From positions 1-31,346 of the IMG/VR virus record IMGVR_UViG_3300009506_000135: a stretch of DNA of 31,346 nt. One strand, given 5' to 3'. The number at the start of each line of letters is the position of its first letter. Position 1 is the first letter of the stretch. The notes beneath the pieces are model-generated. The model was given only the letters and a program-made list of their open reading frames with translations, had not been told where the DNA came from and searched no databases. Position numbers and translations under genes: made by a program. Source of the stretch: a virus. Positions 2,859 to 29,809 of this stretch are shown piece by piece.

Positions 2859-3142
2859 ACGGTAGAGAGATGAATTTCATACTGCTCCTCGCGGTATGCG
2901 ATAATGACATCTTCAAAGCTCTGGAGATAGCGCGAAAGCATAATGGGCTGAAGATCACAATGGCAGCGAAGACGGTGGAGCGCATCCTGATGGAGCTCCT
3001 GATGAACCTTGGATGGAGTGACGACAGGATTGTAGAGTCCATGTTCGACAAGCTGGGCAAGGAAGAGAAGAAGACGGCACGCAGACGTGTGACGCTGCTT
3101 CGACACAGATTAGAAAGGAGACACCTTGACGGACAAAGATAA
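2852..3142 (+). CDS. Unknown 96-aa protein between terL and portal
   Basis: Small basic helical protein of unknown function. ATG 2852 overlaps the terL stop; an in-frame ATG at 2870 is an alternative start, and neither has a strong ribosome binding site. The product has a hydrophobic opening (MNFILLLAVCDNDIFKALEIARKHNG), a segment that could be a helix-turn-helix (KTVERILMELLMNLGWSDDR) and a very basic C terminus rich in Arg and His. Its 3' end overlaps the portal start by 17 bases. A basic, possibly DNA-contacting protein in this slot could belong to packaging or to the portal vertex, but that is only positional inference. Confidence 0.65.
   Translation: MVNGREMNFILLLAVCDNDIFKALEIARKHNGLKITMAAKTVERILMELLMNLGWSDDRIVESMFDKLGKEEKKTARRRVTLLRHRLERRHLDGQR
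3114..3120 (+). promoter_or_regulatory. Ribosome binding site that fixes the portal TTG start
   Basis: AAAGGAG at 3114-3120, five bases before TTG 3126. No ATG in the portal frame lies near the N terminus, so this site decides the unusual TTG start. Confidence 0.75.
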
Positions 3143-4742
3143 GACGCAGATCCTCGCGCTCAGAGACGAGGCAAAGAAGGGATTCGATAAACACAGGACG
3201 GACTTCCAGACGCTGGAGTCAGGACTGCTGTCGATCATCGACGAGGGGAAGCGCACATCGCTGAAGCTCAGACGCAAATCAACACTCAATCCACAGCTGA
3301 TCAAACCAAAGGTGGACAGCGTGACGCGAGACATCATGAGATCGTTTTTCGGACAGGGGCAGCTCGCAGAGATCCAGCCTGAGAGCCCGGACGACGAAAG
3401 GGACGTGAAGATCTCAGAGATCCTGTCCATGGAGCTCAAGGACTTCTCCCGGGACGAGAAGCTGTACTTCCGGGTCAAGCCTATCATCAAGAACGCGCTT
3501 ACCTACGGAACCGTCGTGACGAAGGTATACTACGACACGAAGTCGGAGAAGGTCAAGGTAGAGAAGTGCCGGCTCAACGAGGTGTATCTCGACTCGAAGG
3601 CAGCAGGCCCGTTCGACATCAAGTACCTAGTGCACCGCATTGACTCCATGACCATCTCCGAACTCAAGTCGGCATATCCCAAGCACAAAGCGAAGATAGA
3701 CTGGACATCGTACGTCGGCGACACGCTCGAGGTGGCAAAGGACGAGCTCGAGGATGACGATATCGGTGACTACCAGCGCGTGGAGATCGTAGAGGTCTAC
3801 CGCCTCAAGGGCAAGAACTGGTACGTCTCAACGCTTATCGGTGACGAGTTCCTGAGAGACGACGTGCTGCTCAGGGACGGCCTTCCGTTCATCGTATCCC
3901 CGGTGGAGGAACAGTTCGTCCTGATGGATGAGACGCCTGTGCGTGCATATGGCGACCCGTTCATCGCGCCGCTCATCCCGATACAGGAGGAGTACGTCAT
4001 CAGGCGTAACCAGACCATCGACGCGATCGACCTTCAGCTCAACCCCCGGATCATCACCACCCCGCACAGCGGACTGCGTGACGAGGACCTGAACTCCAAC
4101 CGAAAGAAGCTCGTTGTCGACGAGATGGGCAACTTCGAGGTGCTGCCGGCACCGACCATCTCCGAAGCGCTGCTGGATACATCGCTGCTCGATCAGGAGG
4201 CAGAGGCGATCTCAGGCGTCTCCAAGTACAGCCAAGGCGTATCGACCGACCAGAACAAGTCCAAGACCAAGGGCGAGGCGATGATCCTCGACGCTCGCAG
4301 CTCTGCTGTGGTGGACGACCTGACCCGTGCGATCAACGAGACGTTCTTCAGACCGCTTATCGTACGCATCATCAACCTGACCTACAAGTACAAGCCTTCA
4401 GGCAACTTTGCCGGAACGGACAGGACAAAACCGCTTCGCCAGAAGATCATCATCGACGTCGGTATGGGCTCCTCCAACAAAGAGGTGCAGATCCAGAACG
4501 TCGACAGCGCCATCGAGACCATCACGGCTCGAATGGGAATGCTGCAGCCTATGGGCATGATGCCTGACGGTGCCACCCCCATCCCGAACGACAGGGTACC
4601 GATGTATGACGCCATCCTAGACGAGCTGGTCAAAGAGAAGCTCAAGCTCCTCGGCAAGAACAGCATCGTAGAGACGATGGAGGAACATGAAAAGATGCGC
4701 GAAGAAGCGCAATCCCAAACGCAAGGAGGAATTAACGTATGA
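3126..4742 (+). CDS. Portal protein (podovirus type), TTG start
   Basis: Forms the dodecameric ring at one capsid vertex through which DNA is packaged and ejected. The 538-residue length, position after terL, and composition fit podovirus portals: a basic N-terminal helical region, a wing/clip region around residues 100-290, a PLIPIQEEYVIRRNQTIDAI stem-like segment (about 279-298), a GVSKYSQGVSTDQNKSKTKG tract (about 364-383), the following INETFFRPLIVRIINL helix, and a Gln/Glu-rich C-terminal barrel-like tail. It starts at TTG 3126, set by AAAGGAG. Its stop overlaps the next ATG (ATGA, 4739-4742). I recognise the family pattern rather than a close named homologue. Confidence 0.88.
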   Translation: MTDKDKTQILALRDEAKKGFDKHRTDFQTLESGLLSIIDEGKRTSLKLRRKSTLNPQLIKPKVDSVTRDIMRSFFGQGQLAEIQPESPDDERDVKISEILSMELKDFSRDEKLYFRVKPIIKNALTYGTVVTKVYYDTKSEKVKVEKCRLNEVYLDSKAAGPFDIKYLVHRIDSMTISELKSAYPKHKAKIDWTSYVGDTLEVAKDELEDDDIGDYQRVEIVEVYRLKGKNWYVSTLIGDEFLRDDVLLRDGLPFIVSPVEEQFVLMDETPVRAYGDPFIAPLIPIQEEYVIRRNQTIDAIDLQLNPRIITTPHSGLRDEDLNSNRKKLVVDEMGNFEVLPAPTISEALLDTSLLDQEAEAISGVSKYSQGVSTDQNKSKTKGEAMILDARSSAVVDDLTRAINETFFRPLIVRIINLTYKYKPSGNFAGTDRTKPLRQKIIIDVGMGSSNKEVQIQNVDSAIETITARMGMLQPMGMMPDGATPIPNDRVPMYDAILDELVKEKLKLLGKNSIVETMEEHEKMREEAQSQTQGGINV

Positions 4743-6600: not shown

Positions 6601-7539
6601 ATGTTGACAGCAGCTAACAATACGGTGGCGCAGAAACCCTCGGTAGTCGACGCGATTATCAAGCAGGGTGTAGCGACAGCGCCAATTCTTCAAATGATCG
6701 GGACCGGCTCTATCGCAGCGCCGAATCACTCTTGGATCAACGACCGCTACCGCGATTCGCAGGACAATGCGAACCTCGAACTCTCAGACCTGAGCGAGAA
6801 CATCACGTCAACCAAAGCGAAGACGTCGAACAGCGCACAGATCATCATCAACGAAGTCGGTGTTACCCAGCGCCAGATGGCGATGTCCCAGTACGGTCCT
6901 AAAGAGTGGCCTTATCAGGTCGCAAAGATCGGTAAGGAACACCTGAAAGACATGGAGCACGCGATCCTTGGCCTCGGTCATGCCGGCGGCGTAGAATCTG
7001 CTCCGATCGAGATGACGGACGTCACACCGGGCCGCATGGCAGGTCTTTTCTACTTCGTCCCGGACGAGCAGAGGTACGTCCCGACGGGCGTTGATCCGTC
7101 AGATCCGCTGACGTTCGTCGACTTTACGTATGACCACCTCCATGAGTTCCTCGAGCCACTGTGGCTTCGCGGCGCCATGGAAGACGATACGTTCACGGTC
7201 CTGCTCGGCTCCACGCTGAAGCACAAGATCACGAACTGGACTATCGACCGCATCATCAAGAAGGCGTCCGGAGACAAGGTCTACGACCCGACCATCGACG
7301 AGATCGCGACGGACTTCGGTAACGTAAAGCTCCGCCTCCACCGTCACTTTGCCGGGTCCGCACTGAACGACAAACTGCTTGCAGGTAAGTTCGGTGAGGC
7401 TCGAGCAATGTACATCGACCGCACGGCTTTCAAAGAAGTTCCGACGTCCAAGACTGCACAGTTCGGCCGGTACTACACTGACTTCACCGTTGAGGTCAAG
7501 AACGGCGACATGTTCGCATCTGCTAAGGGCCTGAAGTAA
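6601..7539 (+). CDS. Major capsid protein, DUF5309/SU10-like
   Basis: 312 residues. The N-terminal pattern (VVDAIIKQGVATAPILQMIG, then SWINDRYRDSQDNANLE with the conserved Trp-x-x-Asp) and the following QIIINEVGVTQRQMAMSQYG region match the DUF5309 / SU10 major capsid family, an HK97-fold shell protein. The middle carries the long helix and loop (VAKIGKEHLKDMEHAILGLG) and the C-terminal part holds FGEARAMYIDRTAFKEVP and DFTVEVKNGDMFASAKGL, typical of the family's last strands. It has its own leader with hairpins. Length and order fit a capsid made without cleavage by a phage-encoded protease. Confidence 0.88.
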   Translation: MLTAANNTVAQKPSVVDAIIKQGVATAPILQMIGTGSIAAPNHSWINDRYRDSQDNANLELSDLSENITSTKAKTSNSAQIIINEVGVTQRQMAMSQYGPKEWPYQVAKIGKEHLKDMEHAILGLGHAGGVESAPIEMTDVTPGRMAGLFYFVPDEQRYVPTGVDPSDPLTFVDFTYDHLHEFLEPLWLRGAMEDDTFTVLLGSTLKHKITNWTIDRIIKKASGDKVYDPTIDEIATDFGNVKLRLHRHFAGSALNDKLLAGKFGEARAMYIDRTAFKEVPTSKTAQFGRYYTDFTVEVKNGDMFASAKGLK

Positions 7540-7540
7540 C

Positions 7541-7966
7541 ATGAACTTCTCCGACGCCAAGGGGCTGGTAGACAACCTCCTGAAGGGAGACGCCTCGAAC
7601 GCGTCGGAGCGGGTTGATGTGAACACCCTAACGCAGGCTATAAACGACGTGTCGCGAAGATGCTACCCGTCACCACTGATGTCGACATGGACCGGCGTGG
7701 AGACTGACGTCTTCCGTCGGATACCAAGCGTTGAGGATCCCGATACCGGAGAATGGATCCATCGTTACATCAAAAGACCGGATTTCACTGCTCTGGATGA
7801 AGATTCAGAGATGCCTGTCGATCCCGAACTCGAGATGGCCGTTGTTTACTTCCTGTGCAGCTTTTTCACTACACAGGATCCAGCGCGGTACGTCACGGCT
7901 GCAGAGGCGGTAATCAGTGCCTTCAAGACCAACGAGATCGACCCGAACGACTATTCAGACCAGTAA
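7541..7966 (+). CDS. Probable head-tail adaptor (connector) protein
   Basis: 141 residues, starting two bases after the capsid stop. The pattern fits podovirus/siphovirus adaptors that bind under the portal: an N-terminal helical pair with VDVNTLTQAINDVSRRCYPS, then a strand region with DVFRRIPSV and YIKRPDF, then an acidic 'SEMPVDPELEMAVVYFL' helix and an Asp-rich C-terminal tail. In this family an early gene after the capsid gene seals the portal and starts the tail. Ribosome binding is weak (GGG in the capsid 3' end), so coupling is likely. The assignment rests on pattern and order. Confidence 0.6.
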   Translation: MNFSDAKGLVDNLLKGDASNASERVDVNTLTQAINDVSRRCYPSPLMSTWTGVETDVFRRIPSVEDPDTGEWIHRYIKRPDFTALDEDSEMPVDPELEMAVVYFLCSFFTTQDPARYVTAAEAVISAFKTNEIDPNDYSDQ

Positions 7967-10140: not shown

Positions 10141-10509
10141 ATGTCTGCTAAATCTGACTATCTGGAGAACAAGGTCCTCCAAGACAACGTCGTCACTCCG
10201 AACGTCTACGTCGGGCTCTTCTCAACGGACCCCGGCGAGGATGCATCCGGTACTGAGCTGTCCAACTTGGGATACTCACGGCAGCTAGTAGCGTTCGGCA
10301 CCCCGTCTGGAGGCTCAACGTCCAACACCGCGGCTGTGACGTTCGGACCGGCTCAGGAGAACTGGTCGACAGCATCGTACATGGCTGTGTTCGACGCCGC
10401 ATCTGGCGGGAACATGCTCTACTATGGAGCCCTTGGCACAGCGAGGACTGCGCTGCAGTACGACTCGCTCGAGTTCGCGATAGGAGCTCTGGTAGTCGGG
10501 GAGACGTAA
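10141..10509 (+). CDS. Small tail-fibre-associated family protein
   Basis: 122 residues with a pattern I recognise from a widespread family of small phage tail-fibre/virion proteins. It opens MSAKSDYLENKVLQDNVV, has TPNVYVGLFSTDPGEDASG, then ELSNLGYSRQLVAFG, a Gly/Ser linker, VTFGPAQENWSTASYMAVFD, and a closing GNMLYYGALG segment. The ATG follows AAGGAGG. Family members lie among tail or adsorption genes and have a compact beta fold; the biochemical role is not established. The gene is intact and of normal length. Confidence 0.75.
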   Translation: MSAKSDYLENKVLQDNVVTPNVYVGLFSTDPGEDASGTELSNLGYSRQLVAFGTPSGGSTSNTAAVTFGPAQENWSTASYMAVFDAASGGNMLYYGALGTARTALQYDSLEFAIGALVVGET

Positions 10510-16340: not shown

Positions 16341-18515
16341 ATGAACATGACCACTTTTACAGAGGTGCTGGACGAGGTCTTCAAGAGGATCTCCTTTGAT
16401 GCGGATTCGGTCTTTGCCAAGGCCGATGCGATGCTCAAGGAGTATCTCGACACCAACACCAAAATATCGGACAACGAAAAAGCCAAGGTCTACGGAAATT
16501 TCCTGCAGACGCTGCTGACGAATGCCACCGCTCAGGCCATCGCCGCGGCGCAGGATCTTGGCGGTAAAGGTGATCTCTACACGGCACAGGCCGCGACAGA
16601 GGGAGCGAACAAGCTGCTCGTCGAGGCTCAGGCTGCCACCGAGACCGTCCGCCCAGAACTTCTCCGCAAAGACATCGATCTAAGAACGCAAGAGGTCTAC
16701 CTCAAGATGGAAGAGATCAAGACTGAGCAGGCGAAGCTGGAGCTGATGGACGCGCAGATCGACGTGGAGCTTCAGAAGGTCGAGGTCGAGAAGCAGCAGG
16801 TCCTCCTTCTGCAGCAGCAGGTCCTTCTCGAGGCTGCGAAGATCCCGCTCATCGAGGCGCAGACCAGCCACGAGGGCAAGAAAGAGCTGTTCACGGAGGC
16901 ATCCACCGTTACGGAGTCCTACAAGTCTATGCTCATGCAAGCCCAAGCATCCCACGAGGCGATCAAGGAGAACCTCACCACCGCCATGGTCAGCACCGAG
17001 CAATACAGATCGGATCTCATGCAGGCGCAGGCTGCGACAGAGGCGTTCAAATCGGATCTCATGGCCGCGCAGGCTTCCCACGAGGCAGTCAAAGAGACGC
17101 TCACGTCAGCGATGGCGGTCACGGAGAACTACAAATCCATGCTCATGCAGGCTCAGGCCAGCCACGAGAACGTCAAGCAGAACCTCACTGTCGCCATGGT
17201 CACAACGGAACAATACAAATCCGACCTCATGGCCGCTCAGGCGAGCACGGAGGAGTTCAAGTCACAGCTCATGTCCGCTCAGGCAGATCACGAGCTCATC
17301 AAAGAGACACTCACTACGGCTCAGGCCGCTACAGAGGGAAGCCGCAAGCTGCTCCTCGATGCTCAGACATCACACGAAGGGGTGAAGGAAACGCTCACTG
17401 GATCCCAGAAGCTGCTCACAGACGCACAGACAACGCACGAGGCAGCGAAAGAGCTGCTCACAGGTGCACAGAAATCTCTCGTCGACGCTCAGGCAAGCCA
17501 CGAGGCCATCAAGGAGACTCTCACAACCGCTACAGCGACTACAGAGCAGTACAAGTCAATGCTTATGCAGGCGCAGGCGTCCCACGAGTCCATCAAAGAG
17601 AATCTCACGACGGCCATGGTTTCTACAGAGCAGTACAAGTCGGATCTCATGGCGGCTCAGGCATCTACCGAAGAGTTCAAATCACAGCTCATGTCGGCAC
17701 AGGCGAGCCACGAACTGGTCAAGCAGAACCTGACCACGGCCATGGTCACCACAGAATCATACAAATCATCCCTGATGCAGGCTCAGGCTTCACACGAAAA
17801 GGTGAAAGAGAATCTGACCATCGCAATGGTGACGACGGAACAGTACAAATCAGATCTGATGGCGGCGCAGGCGTCTACAGAGGAGTTCAAGTCAGACCTC
17901 ATGGCTGCTCAAGCCTCTCACGAGCTGGTCAAGGAAACACTGACCACCGCGATGGCGACGACGGAGCAGTACAAATCTCAACTCATGCAGGCACAGGCTT
18001 CGCACGAGGCGGTCAAGGAGAACCTGACCATTGCGATGGTGAGTACGGAACAGTACAAGTCCGACCTCATGCAGGCACAAGCCTCCACAGAGCAGTACAA
18101 GTCCGACCTTATGGCAGCTCAGGCATCCCACGAAGCAGTCAAGGAATCGCTGACTACCGCGATGGCCCTGACGGAGGGGAGCAAGAAGCTCCTCTTGGAT
18201 GCAGAGATCATCACCGAGGGCTTCAAGGGTACCCTCATGGATGCTCAGGCGTCACACGAAGCTATCAAAGAGACGCTCACCAGCGCTCAGAAGCTGCTCG
18301 TCGATGCCCAGACGCAGCATGAGGGCGTCAAGGAGCAGGTCACAACTGAGTCTATCGAGACCGAACGGGAACGGCAGATCCTCATGCGTGCACAGGCGGA
18401 TGCGGCAATCGCTCAGGCGTTTGCGGCCAACATTGCGAACCAGTCCCGGGAACGGGTGGCGCAGATCCACGCGGATGCACAGATCCGTGTGGCTGAAATC
18501 GAAACTGCAGTATAA
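16341..18515 (+). CDS. Long coiled-coil protein built from 14-residue repeats (724 aa)
   Basis: Residues 1-85 are a non-repeated helical head (VLDEVFKRISFDADSVFAKA). Residues 85-172 are Glu/Gln/Leu-rich coiled coil. Residues 173-683 are about 35 units of 14 residues plus three half units of 7, such as AQASHEAIKENLTT and AMVSTEQYKSDLMQ. Hydrophobic or small residues fall at unit positions 1, 5, 8 and 12, an a/d heptad pattern, so the region should be a continuous coiled coil of roughly 76 nm if straight. A 41-residue Ala/Gln-rich tail closes it. There is no signal peptide or membrane segment. AAGG (about 16330-16333) precedes ATG 16341. Lying among structural genes, it is likely a rod-like tail or fibre protein; an internal virion role is also possible. 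Confidence 0.8.
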   Translation: MNMTTFTEVLDEVFKRISFDADSVFAKADAMLKEYLDTNTKISDNEKAKVYGNFLQTLLTNATAQAIAAAQDLGGKGDLYTAQAATEGANKLLVEAQAATETVRPELLRKDIDLRTQEVYLKMEEIKTEQAKLELMDAQIDVELQKVEVEKQQVLLLQQQVLLEAAKIPLIEAQTSHEGKKELFTEASTVTESYKSMLMQAQASHEAIKENLTTAMVSTEQYRSDLMQAQAATEAFKSDLMAAQASHEAVKETLTSAMAVTENYKSMLMQAQASHENVKQNLTVAMVTTEQYKSDLMAAQASTEEFKSQLMSAQADHELIKETLTTAQAATEGSRKLLLDAQTSHEGVKETLTGSQKLLTDAQTTHEAAKELLTGAQKSLVDAQASHEAIKETLTTATATTEQYKSMLMQAQASHESIKENLTTAMVSTEQYKSDLMAAQASTEEFKSQLMSAQASHELVKQNLTTAMVTTESYKSSLMQAQASHEKVKENLTIAMVTTEQYKSDLMAAQASTEEFKSDLMAAQASHELVKETLTTAMATTEQYKSQLMQAQASHEAVKENLTIAMVSTEQYKSDLMQAQASTEQYKSDLMAAQASHEAVKESLTTAMALTEGSKKLLLDAEIITEGFKGTLMDAQASHEAIKETLTSAQKLLVDAQTQHEGVKEQVTTESIETERERQILMRAQADAAIAQAFAANIANQSRERVAQIHADAQIRVAEIETAV
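16857..18389 (+). repeat. 42-bp tandem coding repeats with a 210-bp higher-order period
   Basis: The DNA repeats with a 42-bp period that keeps the 14-residue protein unit. Units fall into three types: A (xxxSHE), B (AMVxTEQYKS) and C (AQASTExFKS). They are ordered A-B-A-B-C, giving 210-bp super-repeats at 16857-17066, 17067-17276, 17487-17696, 17697-17906 and 17907-18116. Two irregular spacer blocks (17277-17486 and 18117-18347) contain the three 21-bp half units. The repeats are coding and well diverged at DNA level. Confidence 0.85.
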
Positions 18516-18525
18516 GGAGAATGAT

Positions 18526-18972
18526 ATGACTACAGCAGCAGCAATGACGCTCCTCGGTAACGAGATCACTCAGGTTATCAAGGAGTACGACAACAGCCCT
18601 GAGGGCAAGGATACGTCCGGCACCCGCATCGCGCACGTACTGGACACGGTAACAGACGCAGAGAAGCTCTGGGCCATCAACGACTCGCTCGTATACGTAG
18701 CGCTTCAGGGATACCCGCGAGACCTGTTCGAGGATCAGGTCAGCGGCACGGCACCGAAGCTCTACGACTACGACGGGACGTACTATGTGCGCCGGCCGGC
18801 AGCTGCAACAGACACAGGTGACGACCTCGACATGTCCGAGGGTCTGGCGGAGGCGGTAGTCTACTACGCCCTGTACAAGCTCGACTCGTCTCAGATGGGG
18901 CACTACAAGAAGACATCAGAGAACATCCGGGCCTACCTCGCGGCTGAGAAGCACTTCGACGCCAACCCATAA
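18526..18972 (+). CDS. Unknown 148-aa protein
   Basis: ATG 18526 follows TAAGGAGA (18513-18520), with the TAA being the stop of the repeat-protein gene. A longer in-frame reading from 18199 is rejected because it overlaps the repeat gene by over 300 bases and has no ribosome binding site. The product has an N-terminal Thr/Ala helix (AAAMTLLGNEITQVIKEYD), a central Asp/Tyr-rich beta part (KLYDYDGTYYVRRPAAATD) and a C-terminal helical part (LAEAVVYYALYKLDSSQMGH). The shape resembles small tail-completion or adaptor proteins, but no family can be named. It is coupled by TAATG to the next gene. Confidence 0.7.
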   Translation: MTTAAAMTLLGNEITQVIKEYDNSPEGKDTSGTRIAHVLDTVTDAEKLWAINDSLVYVALQGYPRDLFEDQVSGTAPKLYDYDGTYYVRRPAAATDTGDDLDMSEGLAEAVVYYALYKLDSSQMGHYKKTSENIRAYLAAEKHFDANP

Positions 18973-20234
18973 TGGAAGACACGGGTAATTACAACCCGAT
19001 AAAGAACTGGAACTGGTTCGAAGAACAGGGTTTCATTCCTAAGGGCAAATTCCAGTGGCGGCAGATCGATTATCCAAACCCTCTGACCAAGGGAATGGAC
19101 CTCTACCATAGAAAGCTCGTCGCCGGGTTCGCCGATGACAGCTTCTCGGTAGAGGACTTCGATGGATTCGCCGGTGACGAGGAGGACGGAAACGCCCATT
19201 TGTACTCTCACCTCGTACGCGATGAACCTGACGCCCTCGCCGGCATCAAGGACTACAGCTCAGATCATCTTGACGAGCTGTCCTACCAACCCTCCTTGCG
19301 TCCTTACCGGACGGGCGGATGCAAACAGATCTGCCCCGACGATCCTATCGGCGCTCTCACTCTCAATTCGTCTCAATCAAAAATATTCGATGTCGGTGAT
19401 GGTGGGTACGGGGTTTGCCCGTTTCAGGATGGATCCGGTGGCGGATTCCTCATCTGGTACGACGGTGCCTATTATCTTTGGGATCTCGATACCGATACAA
19501 AGTCTCAGCTTTTTTCATCAGCAGTGCACCTAACGGAGTGCAGGCTATTCGGAGAGATCTGCGTTGGCAATGACTACGCGGGTAACGTATACCACGTTCA
19601 GCGTTCCGGGCTGACTCAGCTCACAGGGGCCAAGGGCAAAGGGTTTGGCCTAAGGAATGAATTTATCATAACCAGCGACGGCGTGACCACTCGCGCATTC
19701 GAGATCTCCACACACACTCAGGTCGCGTCAAGCACGTCGTCAATGTTCCCATGGTACGACACAGTCTACTTCGGACAGAACCACATAGGTGCAGACCTCA
19801 GGAAGATGTGGCACACGATCGACCTGCAGATAGCTCGCCTGAACTACGACAAAGACACCACTACATACAGCCTGTCTACCGCGGCAGGCGACGGCAGGTA
19901 CATCCATGGAACGTTCGGAAAGCTGATCACCCGGGACTGGATAAGAAAGAAGAAGTGCCCGACAGAGAAGACGTTCAAGAATGTAATGATGACGCTTCGA
20001 TACCCGTGTACGCACATCGCCGTGTCTCTGTCCAAGGAGCTCAAATCCACGAAAAACTGGAAGAGCTACAGGGCCAGCGGCATCACTTTCGACTACCGGA
20101 TAAACGAGATCATCAGGCTTGACATGATTAGAAGGATCTGCCATCTCGCGCAGTCAACATCGAACGCGTTCAATCCAACAACCAGAGTAAACACCAACAC
20201 CGTAACCCTCACGGCCGTCACCGCATCGTACTAA
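18972..20234 (+). CDS. Unknown 420-aa structural-region protein, beta-rich middle
   Basis: Starts at ATG 18972, sharing the A of the previous TAA (TAATG), with no clear ribosome binding site, so coupling is likely. Residues 1-110 are acidic and mixed. Residues about 115-260 show short beta segments with Gly/Asp turns (GGFLIWYDGAYYLWDLD; GNDYAGNVYHVQRSG; FGLRNEFIITSDG), reminiscent of propeller blades such as those in podovirus nozzle proteins. The basic C-terminal part (DWIRKKKCPTEKTFKNVMM) looks like a separate domain. The resemblance is only in general style, and no signature allows a firm call. It is the last gene before a promoter-like gap. Confidence 0.7.
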   Translation: MEDTGNYNPIKNWNWFEEQGFIPKGKFQWRQIDYPNPLTKGMDLYHRKLVAGFADDSFSVEDFDGFAGDEEDGNAHLYSHLVRDEPDALAGIKDYSSDHLDELSYQPSLRPYRTGGCKQICPDDPIGALTLNSSQSKIFDVGDGGYGVCPFQDGSGGGFLIWYDGAYYLWDLDTDTKSQLFSSAVHLTECRLFGEICVGNDYAGNVYHVQRSGLTQLTGAKGKGFGLRNEFIITSDGVTTRAFEISTHTQVASSTSSMFPWYDTVYFGQNHIGADLRKMWHTIDLQIARLNYDKDTTTYSLSTAAGDGRYIHGTFGKLITRDWIRKKKCPTEKTFKNVMMTLRYPCTHIAVSLSKELKSTKNWKSYRASGITFDYRINEIIRLDMIRRICHLAQSTSNAFNPTTRVNTNTVTLTAVTASY

Positions 20235-20300: not shown

Positions 20301-21164
20301 ATGATAAACATCAATCTCACCGATCCAAAAAAGCCAGTCATCCCGTATAAAGAAGAGATGCTCGTCTCCCCTTATGCCAAGAACCCAGTGGCAGGCGGCA
20401 GGATCTATGGAACAGATCAGGTAGTGCCGGCGAAGCAGCCTCAGGCAGATCCTATGGCAGCTGTAAAGCAGTTCATGCCGACATTCACACCGACAACCGC
20501 ACGCGGGTACCAGCTCTACTACCAGCAAATGGGACGAGTCATGGACATGATGAACAACGAAAACAACAACAACACCGTCGCCCGGGGACAGGACATGCGG
20601 TATGCACAGACAGGAGCGCAGCTCAACCAGCAGGAGAGCCAGTTCCAGCGCTCACAGACACAGAACCAGAACCAGTTCCTGCAGACCCTCGGAGTCAACC
20701 GTGAACGCAACCAGCTTACAGCGGACAGGAACCGTGTTAATGATGAACGTCTCGAGCGAAGCTACCAAGTGCAGGTAGATAGAAACGACATGACGCGGGA
20801 AGAGAACATGCGTAAAGCGAGAGAGGACCGAATCAAGTCCGTATCGGATCCGGTGATGATGCAGGGGATCCAGCCGGCAGCGTACGATCACCTAGACGAA
20901 ACCGAGAAGAACTTCGCACGGCAGCAGTACATCGAAACAGGAGCATGGCCAGAGTACAAGCACACTCCGGGATTCTTTGGCGGATCATGGGAGCGCGTCA
21001 AGTCGACATCCGAGAATATGCAGGACACCTCCCCGTCAGAGGAGACAAATGTGACGCCCACGGGAGCGCCACAGCAGCGCCAGCAGCAGTACCCTGACGG
21101 TACACGCGCAACCAGCAACGGCAGACCCATCATCATGAGAAACGGACAGTGGGAGTATGAATAA
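20301..21164 (+). CDS. Gln/Asn/Arg-rich protein, probable internal virion (ejection) protein (287 aa)
   Basis: ATG 20301 follows TTGGAGG. The N-terminal 70 residues are Pro/Val-rich (LTDPKKPVIPYKEEMLVSPY). The middle third (about 75-175) is extremely rich in Gln, Asn, Arg and Glu (NNENNNNTVARGQ; RSQTQNQNQFLQ; RERNQLTADRNRVNDE) and looks like a long polar helix or coiled coil. The C-terminal part has PAAYDHLDETEKNFARQQYI and ends in a small beta element, RPIIMRNGQWEYE. There is no signal peptide. Its TAATG link to the giant polyvalent protein, and the resemblance in style to Gln-rich podovirus internal core proteins, suggest the two are co-packaged and ejected together. Family not recognised. 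Confidence 0.68.
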   Translation: MININLTDPKKPVIPYKEEMLVSPYAKNPVAGGRIYGTDQVVPAKQPQADPMAAVKQFMPTFTPTTARGYQLYYQQMGRVMDMMNNENNNNTVARGQDMRYAQTGAQLNQQESQFQRSQTQNQNQFLQTLGVNRERNQLTADRNRVNDERLERSYQVQVDRNDMTREENMRKAREDRIKSVSDPVMMQGIQPAAYDHLDETEKNFARQQYIETGAWPEYKHTPGFFGGSWERVKSTSENMQDTSPSEETNVTPTGAPQQRQQQYPDGTRATSNGRPIIMRNGQWEYE

Positions 21165-24100
21165 TGATCCAGCCAGACAAAGACAGCGTCGTCCTTCCAC
21201 CGAAGCAGGACGCGCTTGAACCAGACCCGCAATCGGTAGTCCTCCCAACCCAGAACCAAGACAACAAGACGCTGTATCCTAACGAATGGCGCATGCTGGG
21301 AGAGAAGCTAGGGATCATGAGCCCACAGCCAGACCTTGCCCAGCCGGTACAGACGTCGAAGCATGCTGTAGATACGAGCCTCAGAGGTGTGCCATCAGTA
21401 GAGGAGCAGGCGCTGCAGTACCCGGCAATCAGCCCTGAGATCGCCGCTGTCGGCATCGTACGCGCCATCAGTGGCGCGGGAATGGTTGGAATGTCCAAGG
21501 TGGCCCCAAGCGCTGCCAAGTCTCTCGCGCCTGATCTCGCCAAGACCGCAAGCACCAGACTCGGCCGGTTCGGGGCGGGTGTCGGCAACGCGGTAATGGG
21601 AAGGACAAAAGTTCCGCTCACTCTCGCTGATGCAGGCGCAAGAAACATGAAGACCGGCATGGCATTCTTCCAAGATTCGGTCATCGGCGACTTCGCCGCT
21701 CAGGCCGCGCTTGACTTCGTAGACACATTCATCTCCCCTGAGTGGGCGGCAGAGAATCCAAAGACGGCCGGTGGCATCCGCATCGCCGCGGCAATGATCG
21801 CCGGTGCATACGGGGGAAACAAGGCCAATCAGGCGTTCATGAGAGAGATCCAGTCCCCAGAGAACCTGAGCATGGCCACGCAGATGGGACGGGCCGGCCG
21901 GTCGGAGGACGAGATCGCAGACGCCATCTATGCCAACGTCACCGGGCAGAAGCCGAAGCCTGTCGTCACAGACCTTCCGAAGACAAAGCAGGACGCCCTG
22001 AACATCATCTTCCAGAAGGGGGCTGCGGACGACTGGAGATCCCTCACGACGGACGAGTTCTACGCCAAGTACCCGATGATGACACCGGGCAAGGAGTTCT
22101 CCATGAGCGGTGGCATCGGAGGTACTCTGTCCGGCGGCCTCGTCGGCATGGGCGCAGACTACCTCGACGACCAAGAACTGAACAGCCCTGAGATGTGGCT
22201 GGCCGGCGGCGTCGTCGGCGCGTACCTTGGCGCCAAGTACGGCGGGGGGAAGGGCGCGAAGTCATTCGTCGCATCCAAGGATACAGAGCCCGGAGCCATG
22301 TCGGACGTCTTCGACAGAAAAACAAGAAAGTGGATCCCGGATACCGGTGCAAAGATCAAGGACGTCATCGGACCCGATGACCCTGTACGCGCCAAGAAAG
22401 TCATCATGGAGAAATTCGGTGAGAGCGCTTGGAAGCGGTTCCTGAAATATCAGAACAAGCCGATCAGCATCTTCGCTGATGATCCTGAGACCGCGGCACA
22501 GAAGGCATTCTACAAAGAGATCGGATACAGCGCGACACCTAAGCTCGATGATGTGCTAGACCACCCTGCACTGTTCGAGGCGGAGCCGCAGCTGAGAGAT
22601 GTAAAGTTCCAGATCGACCCGGGATATGGACCTCGCAAGATGAGCGGCCGGGAAGCGAACTTCAACTCATACGAGAACCTGCTAACAGTCAGCAGCGACT
22701 TCCCGAACCTTTCAGAGCAGGATAAGTTGAGCACCATCCTCCACGAGGTGCAGCACTCAATTCAGGACGAGCACAAGTGGGCCATGGGCGGTTCGCCATT
22801 CGAGATCGATATTGAGGACCTTGGAGAGTTCGCAAGGAGAAACTACCCGCATGACGACCAGATCGCACAGTGGACAGACTACGTCGCCAAGATTAAAAAG
22901 AAGATTGAGCGCGGATACCCATTATCGCCGTCAGAAGCGGACACGTTCAGGGGGCTGGAGCAGGAGATAAACAATTGGGCGCAGCGCAACTTGGATCCTA
23001 GCATCGGGAGGGGGCGCTACAAGCTGTACAGGGCGTTCGGAGGTGAGCAGGAGTCCAGAGCAACCGAGGCTGCGCTCAAGCACCCAGACATGGACCCATG
23101 GTCTGCTCTCAGGGCTGAAGAGGGTGACGTGCCTGCCCCGATTACACGCCAGTGGGCAAGAGAAAGCGAGCCGTGGAACAAGGCCATCAGGGAAAGCACG
23201 CAGCAGGCACCGGAACAGGCTGACGATCTCACAAACGGATTCTACTCTCAGGCCAAGAGGGTGCTGAAAGAGTCCGGCGACCAGAAGTTCGCCAAGGACC
23301 AGATCATCAACTTCCTAAAGAAGCGCGGCGTAAAGGATGAGGAGATCAAGTGGGCCGGCATCGGAAAGTTCGTCGACAACATGGACGACGGATCCACCGC
23401 CACGGCAAAGCAGATCTCCGATGCTATGGAGCAGCCGCAAATCACTCAGAAGACAATGTCTGAAATAGGTGACATGGCGTGGAAAAACACCGATGGTGAC
23501 GACTGGACGCACTCTACAGGCGTCAAGATAATCAAGACGGTAGATAACGGTCCGGGATATCAGGGATGGCAGATACAGGAGCCCGATGGAAAGATCAGTG
23601 ATGAGATGTTCAACACCCCAGAGGCAGGCATGCAGGCCGTAGACAACATGATCAACGAGGGGTACATGGACAGCTACTCTAGGATCAAGTACAAGGGATA
23701 CTCGACCCCGGAGGGATGGAACTACAGGGAGACTCTTGATACCCTTGACTCCAGAACCCAAAAAGAGATCTCACTGCACAACAAATACCGGCAGGAATAC
23801 GATGACCTTATGGCCAAGAGAAAGCCAATACAGGACCAGATCAACTCACTGAACGATCAGGCAGACAAGCTCCGGGCAAAGATGTATTATGACGACGGAG
23901 AGTGGCACTTCCACCCTTCTGATAAGAAGGCCATGGATCGTATAAACGAACAGCTCGTACCGCTCAGGGACAAGGTCTTCCCATTCAATGAAAAGATCAG
24001 AGATCTTGAGAGAAAGTTCAGCTTTGACTACCCCGGGCGGTCAAAGGAAATGTATTCGTCACCGCACTGGGAAGACGACAACGTCTTGTACCATGTTCGC

Positions 24101-27100
24101 AAGCAGGACCTTCGCGTTGGCGGAAAGAATGCCCTGCTCGTAGACGAGATCCAATCCGACTGGCACCAGCAGGGGAGGAAACAGGGGTATGCACCAGCAT
24201 CAAACTCTCCAGAGGTCATGGCAGCAAAGAAACGTCTCGACGACTTTGACTCGACAATCATCCCAGATCTTCAGCAAAAAATGGATGACCTGCAGAAACC
24301 GATAAGGAAGCTGGTCTCCGGCAAAAGCAACCCTGAGCTCAAGTCTGCATATGAGGTCGCTGAAGACTTCATGAACTACTACAAGAACCCGGAGCTGATC
24401 GATGGTGAAATTGACTACCTGAAGAACAAGCGTGCAGCAGTCAAAGAGCTTCCGAAGATAGCCAAGAGAATGGACGAGATCGAGTCGATAGCAGAAAGAA
24501 AATACCTTCTAAAGCGCAAGCTGTATCAGGACGACTTTGGGTTCGTGGACAAACTTGGATTCGAGGACCCTGAACTCGCTCAGGAGTACTACTCTCTGTC
24601 CAGATCTTTGCGAGAGCTCCCGGACAAGACCATGCTCAAGGCGATAGACAGTAACCTAGAGTGGTACGAAGCATCAAAGAAGATGATCAAAGACAACGGC
24701 GACATGATCAAAAAAGCTGTCGACGCAAAAGAGGAGCTGTGGCAGGCAAAGCGCGACCGACAAGCGGCGTTAGAGATTGCAGACCCTAAGTACGCCGGGA
24801 AGGTACCAGACGCCCCGTACAGCAAGACGTGGAACGAAAAGGCAATGAAGGACGTCATCAATGAGGCCATCGACAACGGCTATGATAAGGTGGCATGGAC
24901 AACCGGCAAGGCGCAGTCAGACAGGTACAGCCTTGCGAAGCAGATAGACAGGCTAGATATCGGGTACAGCGAAGACGGGTACAAACTGTATGGCATGGTA
25001 GGAATGGAGCGGAAAGAGATCGCCAGAAACGTGCCGGAAGAAAAACTCGCTGACTACGTCGGCAAGGATGTGGCGAAGCGTATCGTTGAAGTCGTACAGA
25101 AAGAGGACGACCCGAACAAATGGTTCTTGGATGGTCTGGATCTTGAGGTCGGTGGCGAGGGCATGAAGGGGTTTTATGACGAAATGCTCCCCAAGTTCGT
25201 CAAGAAGTACCTCAAAAAGTACGGTGTAGAGCCTAAGCTGGAACCAATAGGTGACGCAGCAGAGCTCAAGCCGATAGTCGACAAGATCAACGGCGGAGCA
25301 GACCCGCTGACCCTCACGCAGAAAGAACAGGCAGCCATACAGAGAATAGCTGGGGCTTCAGACTTCGAAGGCGCAGCAACGCTCATGAACGAGAAACCAA
25401 GAAGCGAGTACTGGAAGGGAGCGCTGAACAGGCTATACGACGATGTCTCAAAGAAGAAGTCTGTGTGGACATTCGACATCACCGACGAGATGCGCCGGGA
25501 CATCGGATCCAAGGGTCAGCCGCTCTACAACCTGACCAAGGCGCCTCAGGGGGACACGACGGCATTCAACGCTCCCAAGGCGGCTCCTGATGCAGCGACG
25601 ATGGCATCAGAGTCTCTCCCGTCAACCGGTACGCTCCCGGGCCGGATCATCAAGCGCATGTCCCTCGACCAGCAGGCGGCATATCACGATGGTATCCAGA
25701 AGCTGATGTCCGAAGCGGATGGAACCGACTTTGCAATCAAGCAGGCAGGGCTTAAGCAGATCGACACGGTGCACGCGCCGTCGGAGTACCAAGGCCACAT
25801 CGGCGTGGGCGAGCAGACACGCATCGCATATGAGGTTGGCCCGGACGGCCGGGTCACCCCTGAGTTCAAGAACAAACTCCGACTCGCTGCAGCGATCAAG
25901 GGATACGTTCAGGATCAGGACGCTGTCGCGCTTCGACACTTCATCCCGGCAACCGCGGACGACTTCGACTCACTGTCCATCGACATGGGGCGCGTCATCA
26001 AAGACAACGAGATGAGGGCGATCGAATCTGCCCTCGTCGACGCCGGCTACAGCATGGATGACGTCGCAATGGTGTCTTCCAAGTACGGGGTGGATCTGCT
26101 GAATGTCTCTTTCGGAGGCATCGACCAGAAGCGGTTCAGCCATATTTTAGATATAATTGACGATGTTATCGACGGCGACGTCTACATGTACAAGAACGAC
26201 CTGCTGGAAGACGGGTACGTCGGAGGATTCGACGGATACAAGTCAGGTCAGAAAGCCTACAAGGAGGTTCTCAATGGCGCTTCAGATAAAAGATTCAACA
26301 TTGCAGACAGCGGAGAAGCACAACGCTGGGGGATCGACCATGATCTCATTGTCCAAAAAAGGAACGAAGTCCGGGAGTTCACAGACAAGTTCATCAACGA
26401 GCACAAACTCCCAAGAAAGTCCATCCGAGAAATCGGAGAAGAGTCCGACGCAGCCATAGCGGCAGCCGGCAAACAGCTCGACATCAACGATCACTCATTC
26501 AGAGCCCGTAAGCAGATCCGGGACTCCATGGTCGATGAGGTCGACTCCATCCTGAAGGGCGGCGACAGAGACGCCCGGGGATGGTACACTGCACGATACC
26601 AGACCGCGCTCGACGAGCTCGCAGCCGGCCAATTCCCAGAACTGAAAAACAAAGAGAGCCGGGACGCATTCACCGCGATCCTCGCCATCACATCAAACAG
26701 CGAAGACGTAACAGCGAACATGAAGCTGGCCGTCAAGGATTATCAGGAGTACCTGAAGACGGGTCGCTTTGACCAGATCATCCATAACGGGCAGCGAACT
26801 TCAGCGGCCAACAAGAACTTCAGCATCCTCCAGAAGCTCGTGGACGATAAGGGGCTCGAGGGCGCTGTGGACTGGCTCAACGAGTACGACACTGTCGGCA
26901 ACATCAGAAAGATGTCCGGAGAGAAGATGACCGGCTGGTTCAAGGACACGAGAGTCCCTAGGTCGACCATCTTCGGCAACAAGCTCGGAATGTTCTTCTC
27001 AAACCTCTCAGGGCACCCGAACAACCTTACCATGGACAGATGGTGGACACGGTCGTTCAACCGTTACCGCGGACAGATGTCTACGCTCACAGCAAGCGAC

Positions 27101-29809
27101 TCGCAGTACGACATCCTGAGAAAGGCCCTAGGCCGGCCAAAGATCAGCAAGTCGGCTCTCGATGATCAGGCAGAGCAGATCATCAAAGCCTACAACAAGA
27201 GATCAAAAGAGCTCACAGGCAACCAGTGGGATCTCCCGAGAAGCGAGGTGGAGCAGGCCGCCAACAACATCTTCAGCACGAACTCGGGGCTGCGCGACAC
27301 CCCGATGAACGCTGCCGACAGACGCTTCATGCAGCGAGTGGCAGCAGAGGCCGTAGTGGACCTGAAGAAGAAGGGCTACAGCGACCTTACCGTATCAGAC
27401 ATGCAGGCCATCCTGTGGTACGGCGAGAAGCGCAGAATGAGAGAGTTCGGGAGCAGGGCTCCCATCAGGGATATCGACTACGCCGATGCCGTCAATATCC
27501 TGTCGTCGAACCACCCAGAGGACATGGCAGAGGTCGGAGCGGACTACCTGAAGAGCCACATCCCGGGAGCCGACGAAAAAGGCGTCATGCAGATGCACGG
27601 CGGCGGCGCATGGCTCACCAAGAAGACGGAGGAGGGATCCGACGCGGTCATCAGGTCAATCGCCAAGCTGGGATGGAAGGCCGTCAACAAGATCACCGGC
27701 GGCGCTCTGGACAACGCCATCGCCAAGATGAAAGAGAGCGACTTCGTTGATCTCGTCACGGGTCACAAGATCCGCCTCAAGGATGACTACATGGACATCC
27801 GCGACAAGACGCTCATGGGAACGAATAGAACGGCAATGCGGATGGAGATGATGCACCACGAGCTCGCACAGCTCCCGAGCCAGACGCGAGAGGGCCTTCA
27901 GCGGTACCTCGAGGGCGAACCGGTAAAGCTGTCCAAATCGATGCAGCGCCTTGGCGACTACATGATCGAGCAAATCGACGAGGCAAGCAAGCAGCTGGTC
28001 AAGGATGGCCTGCTGTCTCAGGACACGTACGACAACTGGAAGGGAATGTACGTGCACCGCACATACGCTCCAAAGCTGTCCCAGCGGGTTAAGAACACGT
28101 TCTGGGGCAAGTCTGGATTCACGATCGACGAGATCAAGCGACGCGGCAAGGTATGGACAGGCGATGCGGACGAGTATGCGCTGTACGACAGCACCGGGAT
28201 CCTCGGCAAGCCGGGTGAGGGGTTCATCGAGGCCAAGGAGCTGCCGAACGGCAATTTCGAGTTCCGGCGGGACTGGACGTCAGCGGAGCGCGACGCGATG
28301 GGAGAGATCCGTGACGTCGCATACACCTACCCTGAAACGATGATGCGGATCTCGACGATGGCTGAACACTCCAAGCTGCTCAAGAGCATCCCGGAGAAAT
28401 ACCTAGTGCCAAAGAACACGAAGCTGACCGAGCTCGCCCTAGAGGAGAACGGATACAAGCTGCTCACGGGCGAGAAGTACGGAGTGCTCAACGGACGCTG
28501 GGTCTCAGCGGACATCGCAAACGACATCAACAACCTGTCGAACATGATGGTCGGAGGCGTAACGAACGGACCGTTCAAGGAGTTCCGCCAGTTCTGGAAT
28601 GACTACGTGCGCTCTCTGAAGAAGTCGCACACCGTCTTCAACCCACGCGCACACTTCAACAACTGGCACGGAAACATCGCCATGATCTACATGTCCGGTC
28701 TGGATCCGGTCAAGGCATACAAAGATGCGATCAAGGGTGTCGCGATCAAAGGAGACTTCGACAAGCTGATCGAGCTCCGCGCCAAGGACATCGTCGGCAC
28801 GATCTCCGGGACTGAGGCGACTGAGCTGCGACGGCTCGAGGCGAGCAAGGACCTGCTACTGTGGGAGGACGCTGCAGAGCTCGGGCTGTTCGGGCGGTCA
28901 AAGCTCAACGACACGCTGAACCAGTACATGACGCCACAGACGACAAGGATCGACGGCACCATGGAGAAGATCTCTGGGAAGTTCCAGAAGCTCTATCAGG
29001 CTGAGGATGATGCTATGCGATTCGCATCTCTCAAGCAGCTTACTGAAGGCGGGATGAGTATCGAGGACGCGGTCAAGAAGATCAACAACGACATCATCCC
29101 TGACTACACCAAGCCGATGAGCCGCGCCGGCGAATGGATGCGCCGAACCGGTACGGTACCGTTCATCGCGTGGACGTACTACTCAACACCGATGCTGATC
29201 AAGCAGGTAAGGGACCATCCTACGAGAGCGCTCGCTCTGATGGGTTCTCTATGGGCACTCAACTACTTCCAAGGGATCGAGGACGGAGAGGATATGCCAT
29301 ACCACGGGTACGGCATGGAAGGGAAGGCGGCAGCCGTCCCGGGCCTGTCCTCCGGAGACGAGAAGACCATGGTTCGCTACAGCAACACCATCCCGCACAT
29401 GCAGCTCACAGAGCCGGGAGAGACGCTGCGCGGTCTTGTCACCGGCGGTATTCCGCAGCAGATGATGTTCGCGGCGCCGTGGCTGACCGGAGACTCAGCC
29501 ATCAACCCGTACTTCATGCGTCCGGTTACATACCGCAAGGACGGCAAAGGGGTCTACGACAACGTCAAGTACGGCGTCCAGAACTTCCTGCCGACACCGG
29601 ACATTGCCGACAGCGCCTACAACCTGATCGAGTCGCTGATCATGACGCCTGAAACGCGCAGGACCAACCCCGTGATCAACCCGAAGACACCGACTCAGGA
29701 GATCCTCGGTATCATCCCGGGGATAAACGTTCGGACATACAGCAAATCACGGGCGCAGAAGAAAAACATGGAAGACGAGGTCAAGGAACTCCGCAAAAAA
29801 GCGAAATGA
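21164..29809 (+). CDS. Giant polyvalent virion protein (2881 aa) with zincin metallopeptidase motif and LPD-type domains
   Basis: Probably packaged and ejected with the genome. Order seen: Pro/Gln-rich start; Gly-rich hydrophobic segments (about 85-110, 200-220 and 310-365); LDDVLDHPALFEAEPQLRDV leading to HEVQH (527-531), an intact HExxH zincin motif, with GEQESR (Glu 628/630) as likely third ligand, as in polyvalent-protein zincins; NGFYSQAKR (about 693); SPHWEDDNVLYHVRK (about 966) and DEIQSDWHQQGRKQGY (about 993-1008); a long helical insertion to about 1220; WTTGKAQSDRY (about 1245); GQPLYN (about 1455); a second module with ILAITSNSEDVTANMKLA (about 1840) and HPNNLTMDRWWTRSF (about 1951); NPRAHFNNWHGN (about 2493); and an LPD38-like C-terminal region (about 2606-2833). 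The TAATG start is coupled to the Gln-rich gene. Domain names are from pattern memory; the frame is uninterrupted. Confidence 0.85.
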   Translation: MIQPDKDSVVLPPKQDALEPDPQSVVLPTQNQDNKTLYPNEWRMLGEKLGIMSPQPDLAQPVQTSKHAVDTSLRGVPSVEEQALQYPAISPEIAAVGIVRAISGAGMVGMSKVAPSAAKSLAPDLAKTASTRLGRFGAGVGNAVMGRTKVPLTLADAGARNMKTGMAFFQDSVIGDFAAQAALDFVDTFISPEWAAENPKTAGGIRIAAAMIAGAYGGNKANQAFMREIQSPENLSMATQMGRAGRSEDEIADAIYANVTGQKPKPVVTDLPKTKQDALNIIFQKGAADDWRSLTTDEFYAKYPMMTPGKEFSMSGGIGGTLSGGLVGMGADYLDDQELNSPEMWLAGGVVGAYLGAKYGGGKGAKSFVASKDTEPGAMSDVFDRKTRKWIPDTGAKIKDVIGPDDPVRAKKVIMEKFGESAWKRFLKYQNKPISIFADDPETAAQKAFYKEIGYSATPKLDDVLDHPALFEAEPQLRDVKFQIDPGYGPRKMSGREANFNSYENLLTVSSDFPNLSEQDKLSTILHEVQHSIQDEHKWAMGGSPFEIDIEDLGEFARRNYPHDDQIAQWTDYVAKIKKKIERGYPLSPSEADTFRGLEQEINNWAQRNLDPSIGRGRYKLYRAFGGEQESRATEAALKHPDMDPWSALRAEEGDVPAPITRQWARESEPWNKAIRESTQQAPEQADDLTNGFYSQAKRVLKESGDQKFAKDQIINFLKKRGVKDEEIKWAGIGKFVDNMDDGSTATAKQISDAMEQPQITQKTMSEIGDMAWKNTDGDDWTHSTGVKIIKTVDNGPGYQGWQIQEPDGKISDEMFNTPEAGMQAVDNMINEGYMDSYSRIKYKGYSTPEGWNYRETLDTLDSRTQKEISLHNKYRQEYDDLMAKRKPIQDQINSLNDQADKLRAKMYYDDGEWHFHPSDKKAMDRINEQLVPLRDKVFPFNEKIRDLERKFSFDYPGRSKEMYSSPHWEDDNVLYHVRKQDLRVGGKNALLVDEIQSDWHQQGRKQGYAPASNSPEVMAAKKRLDDFDSTIIPDLQQKMDDLQKPIRKLVSGKSNPELKSAYEVAEDFMNYYKNPELIDGEIDYLKNKRAAVKELPKIAKRMDEIESIAERKYLLKRKLYQDDFGFVDKLGFEDPELAQEYYSLSRSLRELPDKTMLKAIDSNLEWYEASKKMIKDNGDMIKKAVDAKEELWQAKRDRQAALEIADPKYAGKVPDAPYSKTWNEKAMKDVINEAIDNGYDKVAWTTGKAQSDRYSLAKQIDRLDIGYSEDGYKLYGMVGMERKEIARNVPEEKLADYVGKDVAKRIVEVVQKEDDPNKWFLDGLDLEVGGEGMKGFYDEMLPKFVKKYLKKYGVEPKLEPIGDAAELKPIVDKINGGADPLTLTQKEQAAIQRIAGASDFEGAATLMNEKPRSEYWKGALNRLYDDVSKKKSVWTFDITDEMRRDIGSKGQPLYNLTKAPQGDTTAFNAPKAAPDAATMASESLPSTGTLPGRIIKRMSLDQQAAYHDGIQKLMSEADGTDFAIKQAGLKQIDTVHAPSEYQGHIGVGEQTRIAYEVGPDGRVTPEFKNKLRLAAAIKGYVQDQDAVALRHFIPATADDFDSLSIDMGRVIKDNEMRAIESALVDAGYSMDDVAMVSSKYGVDLLNVSFGGIDQKRFSHILDIIDDVIDGDVYMYKNDLLEDGYVGGFDGYKSGQKAYKEVLNGASDKRFNIADSGEAQRWGIDHDLIVQKRNEVREFTDKFINEHKLPRKSIREIGEESDAAIAAAGKQLDINDHSFRARKQIRDSMVDEVDSILKGGDRDARGWYTARYQTALDELAAGQFPELKNKESRDAFTAILAITSNSEDVTANMKLAVKDYQEYLKTGRFDQIIHNGQRTSAANKNFSILQKLVDDKGLEGAVDWLNEYDTVGNIRKMSGEKMTGWFKDTRVPRSTIFGNKLGMFFSNLSGHPNNLTMDRWWTRSFNRYRGQMSTLTASDSQYDILRKALGRPKISKSALDDQAEQIIKAYNKRSKELTGNQWDLPRSEVEQAANNIFSTNSGLRDTPMNAADRRFMQRVAAEAVVDLKKKGYSDLTVSDMQAILWYGEKRRMREFGSRAPIRDIDYADAVNILSSNHPEDMAEVGADYLKSHIPGADEKGVMQMHGGGAWLTKKTEEGSDAVIRSIAKLGWKAVNKITGGALDNAIAKMKESDFVDLVTGHKIRLKDDYMDIRDKTLMGTNRTAMRMEMMHHELAQLPSQTREGLQRYLEGEPVKLSKSMQRLGDYMIEQIDEASKQLVKDGLLSQDTYDNWKGMYVHRTYAPKLSQRVKNTFWGKSGFTIDEIKRRGKVWTGDADEYALYDSTGILGKPGEGFIEAKELPNGNFEFRRDWTSAERDAMGEIRDVAYTYPETMMRISTMAEHSKLLKSIPEKYLVPKNTKLTELALEENGYKLLTGEKYGVLNGRWVSADIANDINNLSNMMVGGVTNGPFKEFRQFWNDYVRSLKKSHTVFNPRAHFNNWHGNIAMIYMSGLDPVKAYKDAIKGVAIKGDFDKLIELRAKDIVGTISGTEATELRRLEASKDLLLWEDAAELGLFGRSKLNDTLNQYMTPQTTRIDGTMEKISGKFQKLYQAEDDAMRFASLKQLTEGGMSIEDAVKKINNDIIPDYTKPMSRAGEWMRRTGTVPFIAWTYYSTPMLIKQVRDHPTRALALMGSLWALNYFQGIEDGEDMPYHGYGMEGKAAAVPGLSSGDEKTMVRYSNTIPHMQLTEPGETLRGLVTGGIPQQMMFAAPWLTGDSAINPYFMRPVTYRKDGKGVYDNVKYGVQNFLPTPDIADSAYNLIESLIMTPETRRTNPVINPKTPTQEILGIIPGINVRTYSKSRAQKKNMEDEVKELRKKAK

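Follow-up and report, generated by a model that had tools for sequence, protein, structure and literature searches.

A 724-residue protein encoded by a virus is built largely from 14-residue helical units, which are arranged in an ordered super-repeat. The rod that they form most likely belongs to the virus tail, as either tube wall or fibre shaft, and most likely represents a known kind of phage tail component in a new and very long form. The whole virus record analysed (IMGVR_UViG_3300009506_000135; 31,346 bases) is referred to here as the window.

Gene neighbourhood of the rod

All window open reading frames with any match correspond to genes of short-tailed phages, and several match nothing. 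The phage is most likely short-tailed and SU10/GP4-like. The bacteria that it infects are probably of the hydrothermal-vent type. The recognised genes around the rod are as follows.

3126..4742, plus strand: SU10-type portal protein (PF23899, E 1.2e-25)
6601..7539, plus strand: SU10-type major capsid protein (PF17236, E 1.7e-45)
7541..7966, plus strand: adaptor-fold protein 1, its gene immediately following that of the major capsid protein (hhalign against protein 2)
10141..10509, plus strand: homologue of the podophage GP4 fibre protein gp80 (PF23140, E 8.8e-31)
16341..18515, plus strand: rod protein, 724 aa, whole gene (open reading frame and family alignment)
18526..18972, plus strand: adaptor-fold protein 2, encoded immediately after the rod protein (weak SU10_adaptor match)
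18972..20234, plus strand: 420-aa protein following adaptor 2; only its gene order suggests a nozzle

The ATG of adaptor-fold protein 2 is preceded by AAGGAGA. The 420-aa protein has no Pfam, PHROG or PDB match. A 2881-aa protein (21164-29809) closes the structural cluster; it is probably a giant ejection protein, and a PHROG search with it gave no convincing match. No tail-tube, terminator or baseplate genes, the context expected of a tape measure, were recognised in the window. In several relatives (L029, L031, L053, L055 and others), two small genes of ~186 and ~202 aa lie directly upstream of the rod gene; the window lacks both.

The two adaptor-fold proteins, the first of 141 aa, are homologous to each other (hhalign 97%, E 2.9e-11; score 70.7 against a null of 11.8 ± 2.1), and phrog_9292 is weakly matched by both adaptor families. 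Such a pair is present in the window and relatives alike. In the literature examined, podophages with solved tails have one adaptor each. Judging from sequence, the rod could possibly form a tube between two adaptor rings, and a ring at either end would account for the conservation of the rod protein at its two ends. A more specific version, in which a tail tube between two paralogous adaptor rings takes its length from the number of heptads without a tape measure and the window version, with a 10-heptad super-repeat and about 75-95 nm, is the longest known, is unlikely in our estimate.

Architecture of the rod protein

The rod gene encodes the following segments.

16341..16565, plus strand: N-terminal three-helix domain, aa 1-75, with the conserved motif NTKISDNEKAKVY (alignments and model helices)
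16566..16856, plus strand: non-repeating helical stretch, aa 76-172
16857..17066, plus strand: block 1, A-B-A-B-C, aa 173-242
17067..17276, plus strand: block 2, A-B-A-B-C, aa 243-312
17277..17486, plus strand: spacer 1, aa 313-382, with half units SQKLLTD and AQKSLVD
17487..17696, plus strand: block 3, aa 383-452
17697..17906, plus strand: block 4, aa 453-522
17907..18116, plus strand: block 5, aa 523-592
18117..18347, plus strand: irregular repeat end, aa 593-669, 77 residues, with half unit AQKLLVD
18348..18512, plus strand: helical C-terminal segment, aa 670-724, the last part of which is conserved in the family

Residues 173-669 (16857-18347) consist of 14-residue units. The identity is 0.58 at a lag of 70 residues, compared with 0.375 at a lag of 14. 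At a lag of five units it is 0.807, compared with 0.535 ± 0.042 in 20,000 shuffles of the unit order (shuffle maximum 0.70). When the units are clustered blind into four classes, one five-letter pattern emerges in all five blocks, save the first unit of block 1. The A-B-A-B-C order proposed in the preliminary description, with two blocks before a spacer and three after it, is thus borne out, with block starts at residues 173, 243, 383, 453, and 523. Spacer 1 is exactly 70 residues long, indicating that the 70-residue register is unbroken from residue 173 to 592. The three half units, SQKLLTD (355), AQKSLVD (376), and AQKLLVD (649), are found where described and keep the heptad phase. The proposed repeat span, 16857-18389, is correct at its start but not at its end: the repeat stops at 18347, and residues 670-683 belong to the C-terminal segment. 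Upstream of the repeat, the family motif KIPLIEAQT ends the stretch of residues 76-172 and runs into block 1.

AF2 predicts the window protein, as a monomer, to be all helix (pLDDT 61), and likewise the protein of the relative L055 (pLDDT about 70-88 in the rod). The helices of the N-terminal domain span residues 3-17, 24-38, and 44-73 of the window model. The same model breaks the helix, at low confidence, in spacer 1 (346-351), at the end of spacer 2 (663-671), and in a regular block (515-526). The break inside a regular block does not support the suggestion that the spacers serve as hinges or binding stations. The rod length of ~76 nm calculated earlier is arithmetically right (0.1485 nm × 511 = 75.9 nm). 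However, helix is also predicted at residues 83-178 and 672-723, and therefore the rod, if fully extended, would be closer to 95 nm.

Age of the repeat and selection

The five regular blocks share 71-86% amino-acid identity. Codon identity at shared residues is ~0.43, compared with 0.46 by chance, indicating that synonymous positions are at or near saturation, and dN/dS is at most 0.25 in every block pair. Near-saturated synonymous sites combined with this level of protein identity indicate that the pattern is old and is held by selection on the protein. Recent tandem duplication in the window rod is ruled out by the same saturation. The codons may have been driven apart to prevent recombination.

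Length steps in the rod family

Orthologues were first reached via close relatives of the capsid gene, in the same gene place, and later scans added others. They lie in Campylobacterota prophages and in metagenome contigs. Where the host is known, it belongs to the Campylobacterota: a Sulfurimonas MAG, other genomes of that class, and a 2,101,285-base chromosome, whose prophage has a G+C content of 54%, compared with 56% in the window. The proteins are 241, 252, 265, 309, 310, 317, 328, 336, 343, 344, 409, 551, and, in the window, 724 aa long. The N-terminal domain (~75 aa) and the last ~45 aa are conserved in the family, and the rod between them is variable. Wherever the neighbourhood was examined, the rod gene lies directly upstream of an adaptor-fold gene.

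Measured from anchor to anchor, the rods are 101 (three members), 157 (two members), 178, 192 (three members), 220, and 409 residues long, all of which are 3 mod 7. Two rods, of 196 residues in L031 and 609 in the window, are 0 mod 7 instead; in these, the anchors align less well. The naive probability of six distinct lengths falling in one residue class is 6e-5, a value that leaves out L031 and the window and is uncorrected for kinship. Between relatives, rod length thus varies almost only in whole heptads. These length differences, together with the all-helix predictions and purifying selection on the blocks, support the proposal, in the preliminary description, of a built helical rod of set length.

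One relative contains a perfect 210-nt, 70-codon tandem copy inside its rod (L015:1030-2058, minus strand). The copy is likely a growth step of the rod, and it would be either a very recent step or an effect of assembly. Four rod proteins (L019, L066, L071, and L083) have a CKC motif in the last 25 residues, near the conserved C-terminal end, which is possibly an interchain disulphide site. The terminase large subunit of another relative (L004:488-2866) has 793 aa rather than about 472, with an intein-like insert directly after the Walker A motif (SGHG, followed by CFGIDTEIMLSDGS). The Sulfurimonas prophage of PMC11290706 was considered as a phage of the same kind and rejected because it has a tape measure protein and a baseplate.

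Hydrophobic pattern of the rods

In the relatives, hydrophobic residues occupy heptad positions 2 and 4, and Met occupies position 5, so that hardly any 3.5-residue power remains and most of the signal lies in the first and third heptad harmonics. These harmonics are far above the shuffle null. The ratio k2/(k1+k3) is 0.06-0.13 in the relatives, 0.08 in LIT1 gp75, and 0.16 in the expanded N4-gp54 homologue of Alteromonas PT15-A5. The two seams of the relatives' rods are 154 degrees apart, which corresponds to a ring of about 14 helices (150 degrees for 12); 12-14 helices fit. A 7-residue beta-solenoid, considered for the h-x-h pattern of the relatives, is rejected because the model is helical throughout and Gly is almost lacking.

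The window rod has a canonical a/d core at positions 4 (L / T,H) and 0 (Y,V,F,I / A), about 51 degrees apart, and a weak second seam with Met at position 5 and Ala at position 2. Taken alone, the a/d core predicts 2-4 strands. All 16 histidines of the rod fall at one heptad position, and all 11 tyrosines likewise at one. In 57 of 71 cases, the residue at position 1, which lies between the seams on their narrow side, is K or Q, a composition that would be compatible with a DNA channel.

The rod as a candidate tail tube

The tail tube of phage N4 is gp54 (PMC12633501; PDB 9lc0, 9yf4). DEV gp75 forms a dodecameric helical tube of ~330 Å, the N-terminal helix-turn-helix of which contacts the adaptor (PMC10925440). 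We consider it plausible, though short of probable, that the rod works like such an alpha-helical tail tube. The three-helix N-terminal domain would dock on the portal/adaptor vertex, the long rod of whole heptads would set a distance, and the conserved C-terminal helix would provide a second contact. Many copies of the rod side by side would form the tube, like the dodecameric N4 gp54 and DEV gp75, with a length of about 75-95 nm here compared with about 33 nm in DEV. The length of the rod, and hence that of the tail, would change as heptad multiples are duplicated in frame.

PHROG_2050 is the N4 gp54 family (E 7e-114 for gp54 itself). It matches the N-terminal domains of L083, L071, and the window at E 0.0076, 0.021, and 0.09, respectively, which does not amount to a significant family match. 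In the window, ISDNEKAKVY lies in register over ITGGDYVKAY of phrog_2050, as read by eye. The N-domain profile scores 19.2 against that of gp54, with an hhalign probability of 5% and a column-shuffle null of 10.0 ± 2.1. This score is reached by none of 250 column shuffles and by 2 of 250 seven-column block shuffles (block null 12.1 ± 2.2). Probabilities from hhalign for the family against gp54 are 2-15%; hhalign of the whole rod is uninformative owing to coil bias. When the full gp54 profile is run against 1124 open reading frames, the rods of six relatives are the top six, a ranking to which coil bias contributes, and two of the six matches are clear (E 1.8e-6 and 1.7e-5). The window rod is not recovered by this profile among the 1124, the gp54 N-domain HMM alone fails to find the rod family, and a direct search of the genomes with phrog_2050 found nothing. 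Because the profile match is not significant and the gene position differs, the rod is not filed as a gp54 family member.

Other searches gave no close match. The window protein, the rods of two relatives, and one N-terminal domain yielded nothing significant by tblastn against 50,697 phages, and a PDB sequence search with the window protein yielded nothing. Foldseek searches of PDB and BFVD with the window and L055 models returned generic coiled coils only. Pfam Propep_M14 (E 5e-4) and PHROG 35819 and 5009 match inside the repeat and were set aside as coil noise. No virion structure for this Campylobacterota phage group was found in the literature. The earlier statement that no named family has this plan therefore holds for close sequence kinship, but a matching characterised kind probably exists, represented by N4 gp54 and DEV gp75.

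Alternative functions

The a/d core and the 3.5-residue power of the window rod would suit a trimeric or dimeric coiled-coil shaft, either the proximal shaft of a long tail fibre or a neck whisker of the T4-fibritin type, the C-terminal end of which carries or binds a separate receptor-binding protein from a neighbouring gene. Fibre-like gene neighbours, including the GP4 gp80 homologue, are consistent with a shaft, and the long fibres of SU10 consist of trimeric proximal and distal proteins, with coiled-coil docking on the adaptor (PMC9509320). However, the rod protein has no receptor-binding or globular end domain, and a conserved C-terminal end with a variable shaft is the reverse of most receptor-binding fibres. 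In addition, the hydrophobic pattern of the relatives is not a/d, whereas the fibre-like coiled coil of a related Campylobacter phage is canonical (3.5 power 18.7, compared with 0.9 at 2.33). We regard the shaft as a serious alternative, though less likely than not.

A very long tail needle or plug of the P22 gp26 type, which would seal the tail and make contact with the outer membrane, is suggested by the PDB profile matches of the relatives: the best is to the gp26 coil (E 3e-4), with the tail tube 9d83 ranking lower (E 0.009). In addition, no other needle gene is recognised after the 420-aa gene. The gp26 match covers only the repeat coil of the relatives, which have no a/d core, and the window alone has no gp26 match at E ≤ 1. 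Moreover, the rod gene lies before the genes of adaptor 2 and the nozzle-like protein rather than downstream of the nozzle, and a needle of 75 nm on a short tail is implausible; we consider a needle very improbable. An analogy with the pilot protein H of phiX174, in which the rod would be packaged in the virion and, once ejected, would build an alpha-helical conduit for DNA through the envelope, is also improbable. Amide and guanidinium side chains line the helical tube that protein H forms (PMC7354561), and tblastn with the relative L055 reaches a DNA pilot protein of a microvirus in which a similar motif, KxPxLxEAQT..E, occurs, but the match (E 0.8) is not significant and phiX174 H has no such heptad signature. 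The rod gene also lies outside the presumed ejection-protein end of the cluster, the site of the 2881-aa protein. Repeats in a microvirus DNA pilot protein (L087:1060-1977; EEKRPALVEAQTKS) resemble the KIPLMEAQT..E motif of the rod family.

Comparison with known systems

In phages, a separate protein, the tape measure, usually determines how long the tail is. The rod is like the siphophage tape measure protein in that protein length could set tail length; unlike it, the rod would be the wall itself and not an inner ruler. Whole-heptad differences between rods would let the length of the tail, or of a fibre, be read off one gene, and the rod may reveal the means by which the length of a tail part is fixed in a short-tailed virus. 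With this rod, the alpha-helical tail tubes recently solved in Schitoviridae, or an equivalent fibre, would be known from phages of Campylobacterota as well.

The whiskers of T4, made of fibritin, are long segmented coiled-coil rods on the neck of a tailed phage. The resemblance of the rod protein to fibritin is a likeness only: PDB searches gave no fibritin match, and no end resembling the foldon was recognised. P22 gp26 is, like the rod, a podophage tail coiled coil of repeats, but no tip domain like that of gp26 is found. The long tail fibre proximal protein of SU10, gp12, belongs to a phage with related capsid, portal, and adaptor, and its coil is docked on the adaptor; unlike the rod protein, gp12 has a large non-coil part, and there is no sequence match.

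The candidate tail tube shares with N4 gp54 and DEV gp75 (Schitoviridae) a tail gene encoding a short helical N-terminal domain with an I-[ST]..Y motif. As in the gp54 homologues compared, a long helical rod of variable length follows (158 to 513 aa). Some of these homologues have 450-513 aa, and that of PT15-A5 has AQT-type heptads, as in the rod family. The rods of the relatives have the non-canonical heptad signature of several gp54 family members. A gp54-like tail protein of 509 aa from Alteromonas phage PT11-V19 (L101:1750-3279) has long internal repeats without the heptad signature. Unlike N4 gp54, which is encoded between the capsid and plug genes, the rod gene adjoins that of adaptor-fold protein 2. 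The window also differs in its a/d core, second adaptor, and possible nozzle: the 420-aa gene occupies the nozzle place of related phages, and the literature examined describes none for N4 or DEV. The window protein is longer than any gp54 homologue compared.
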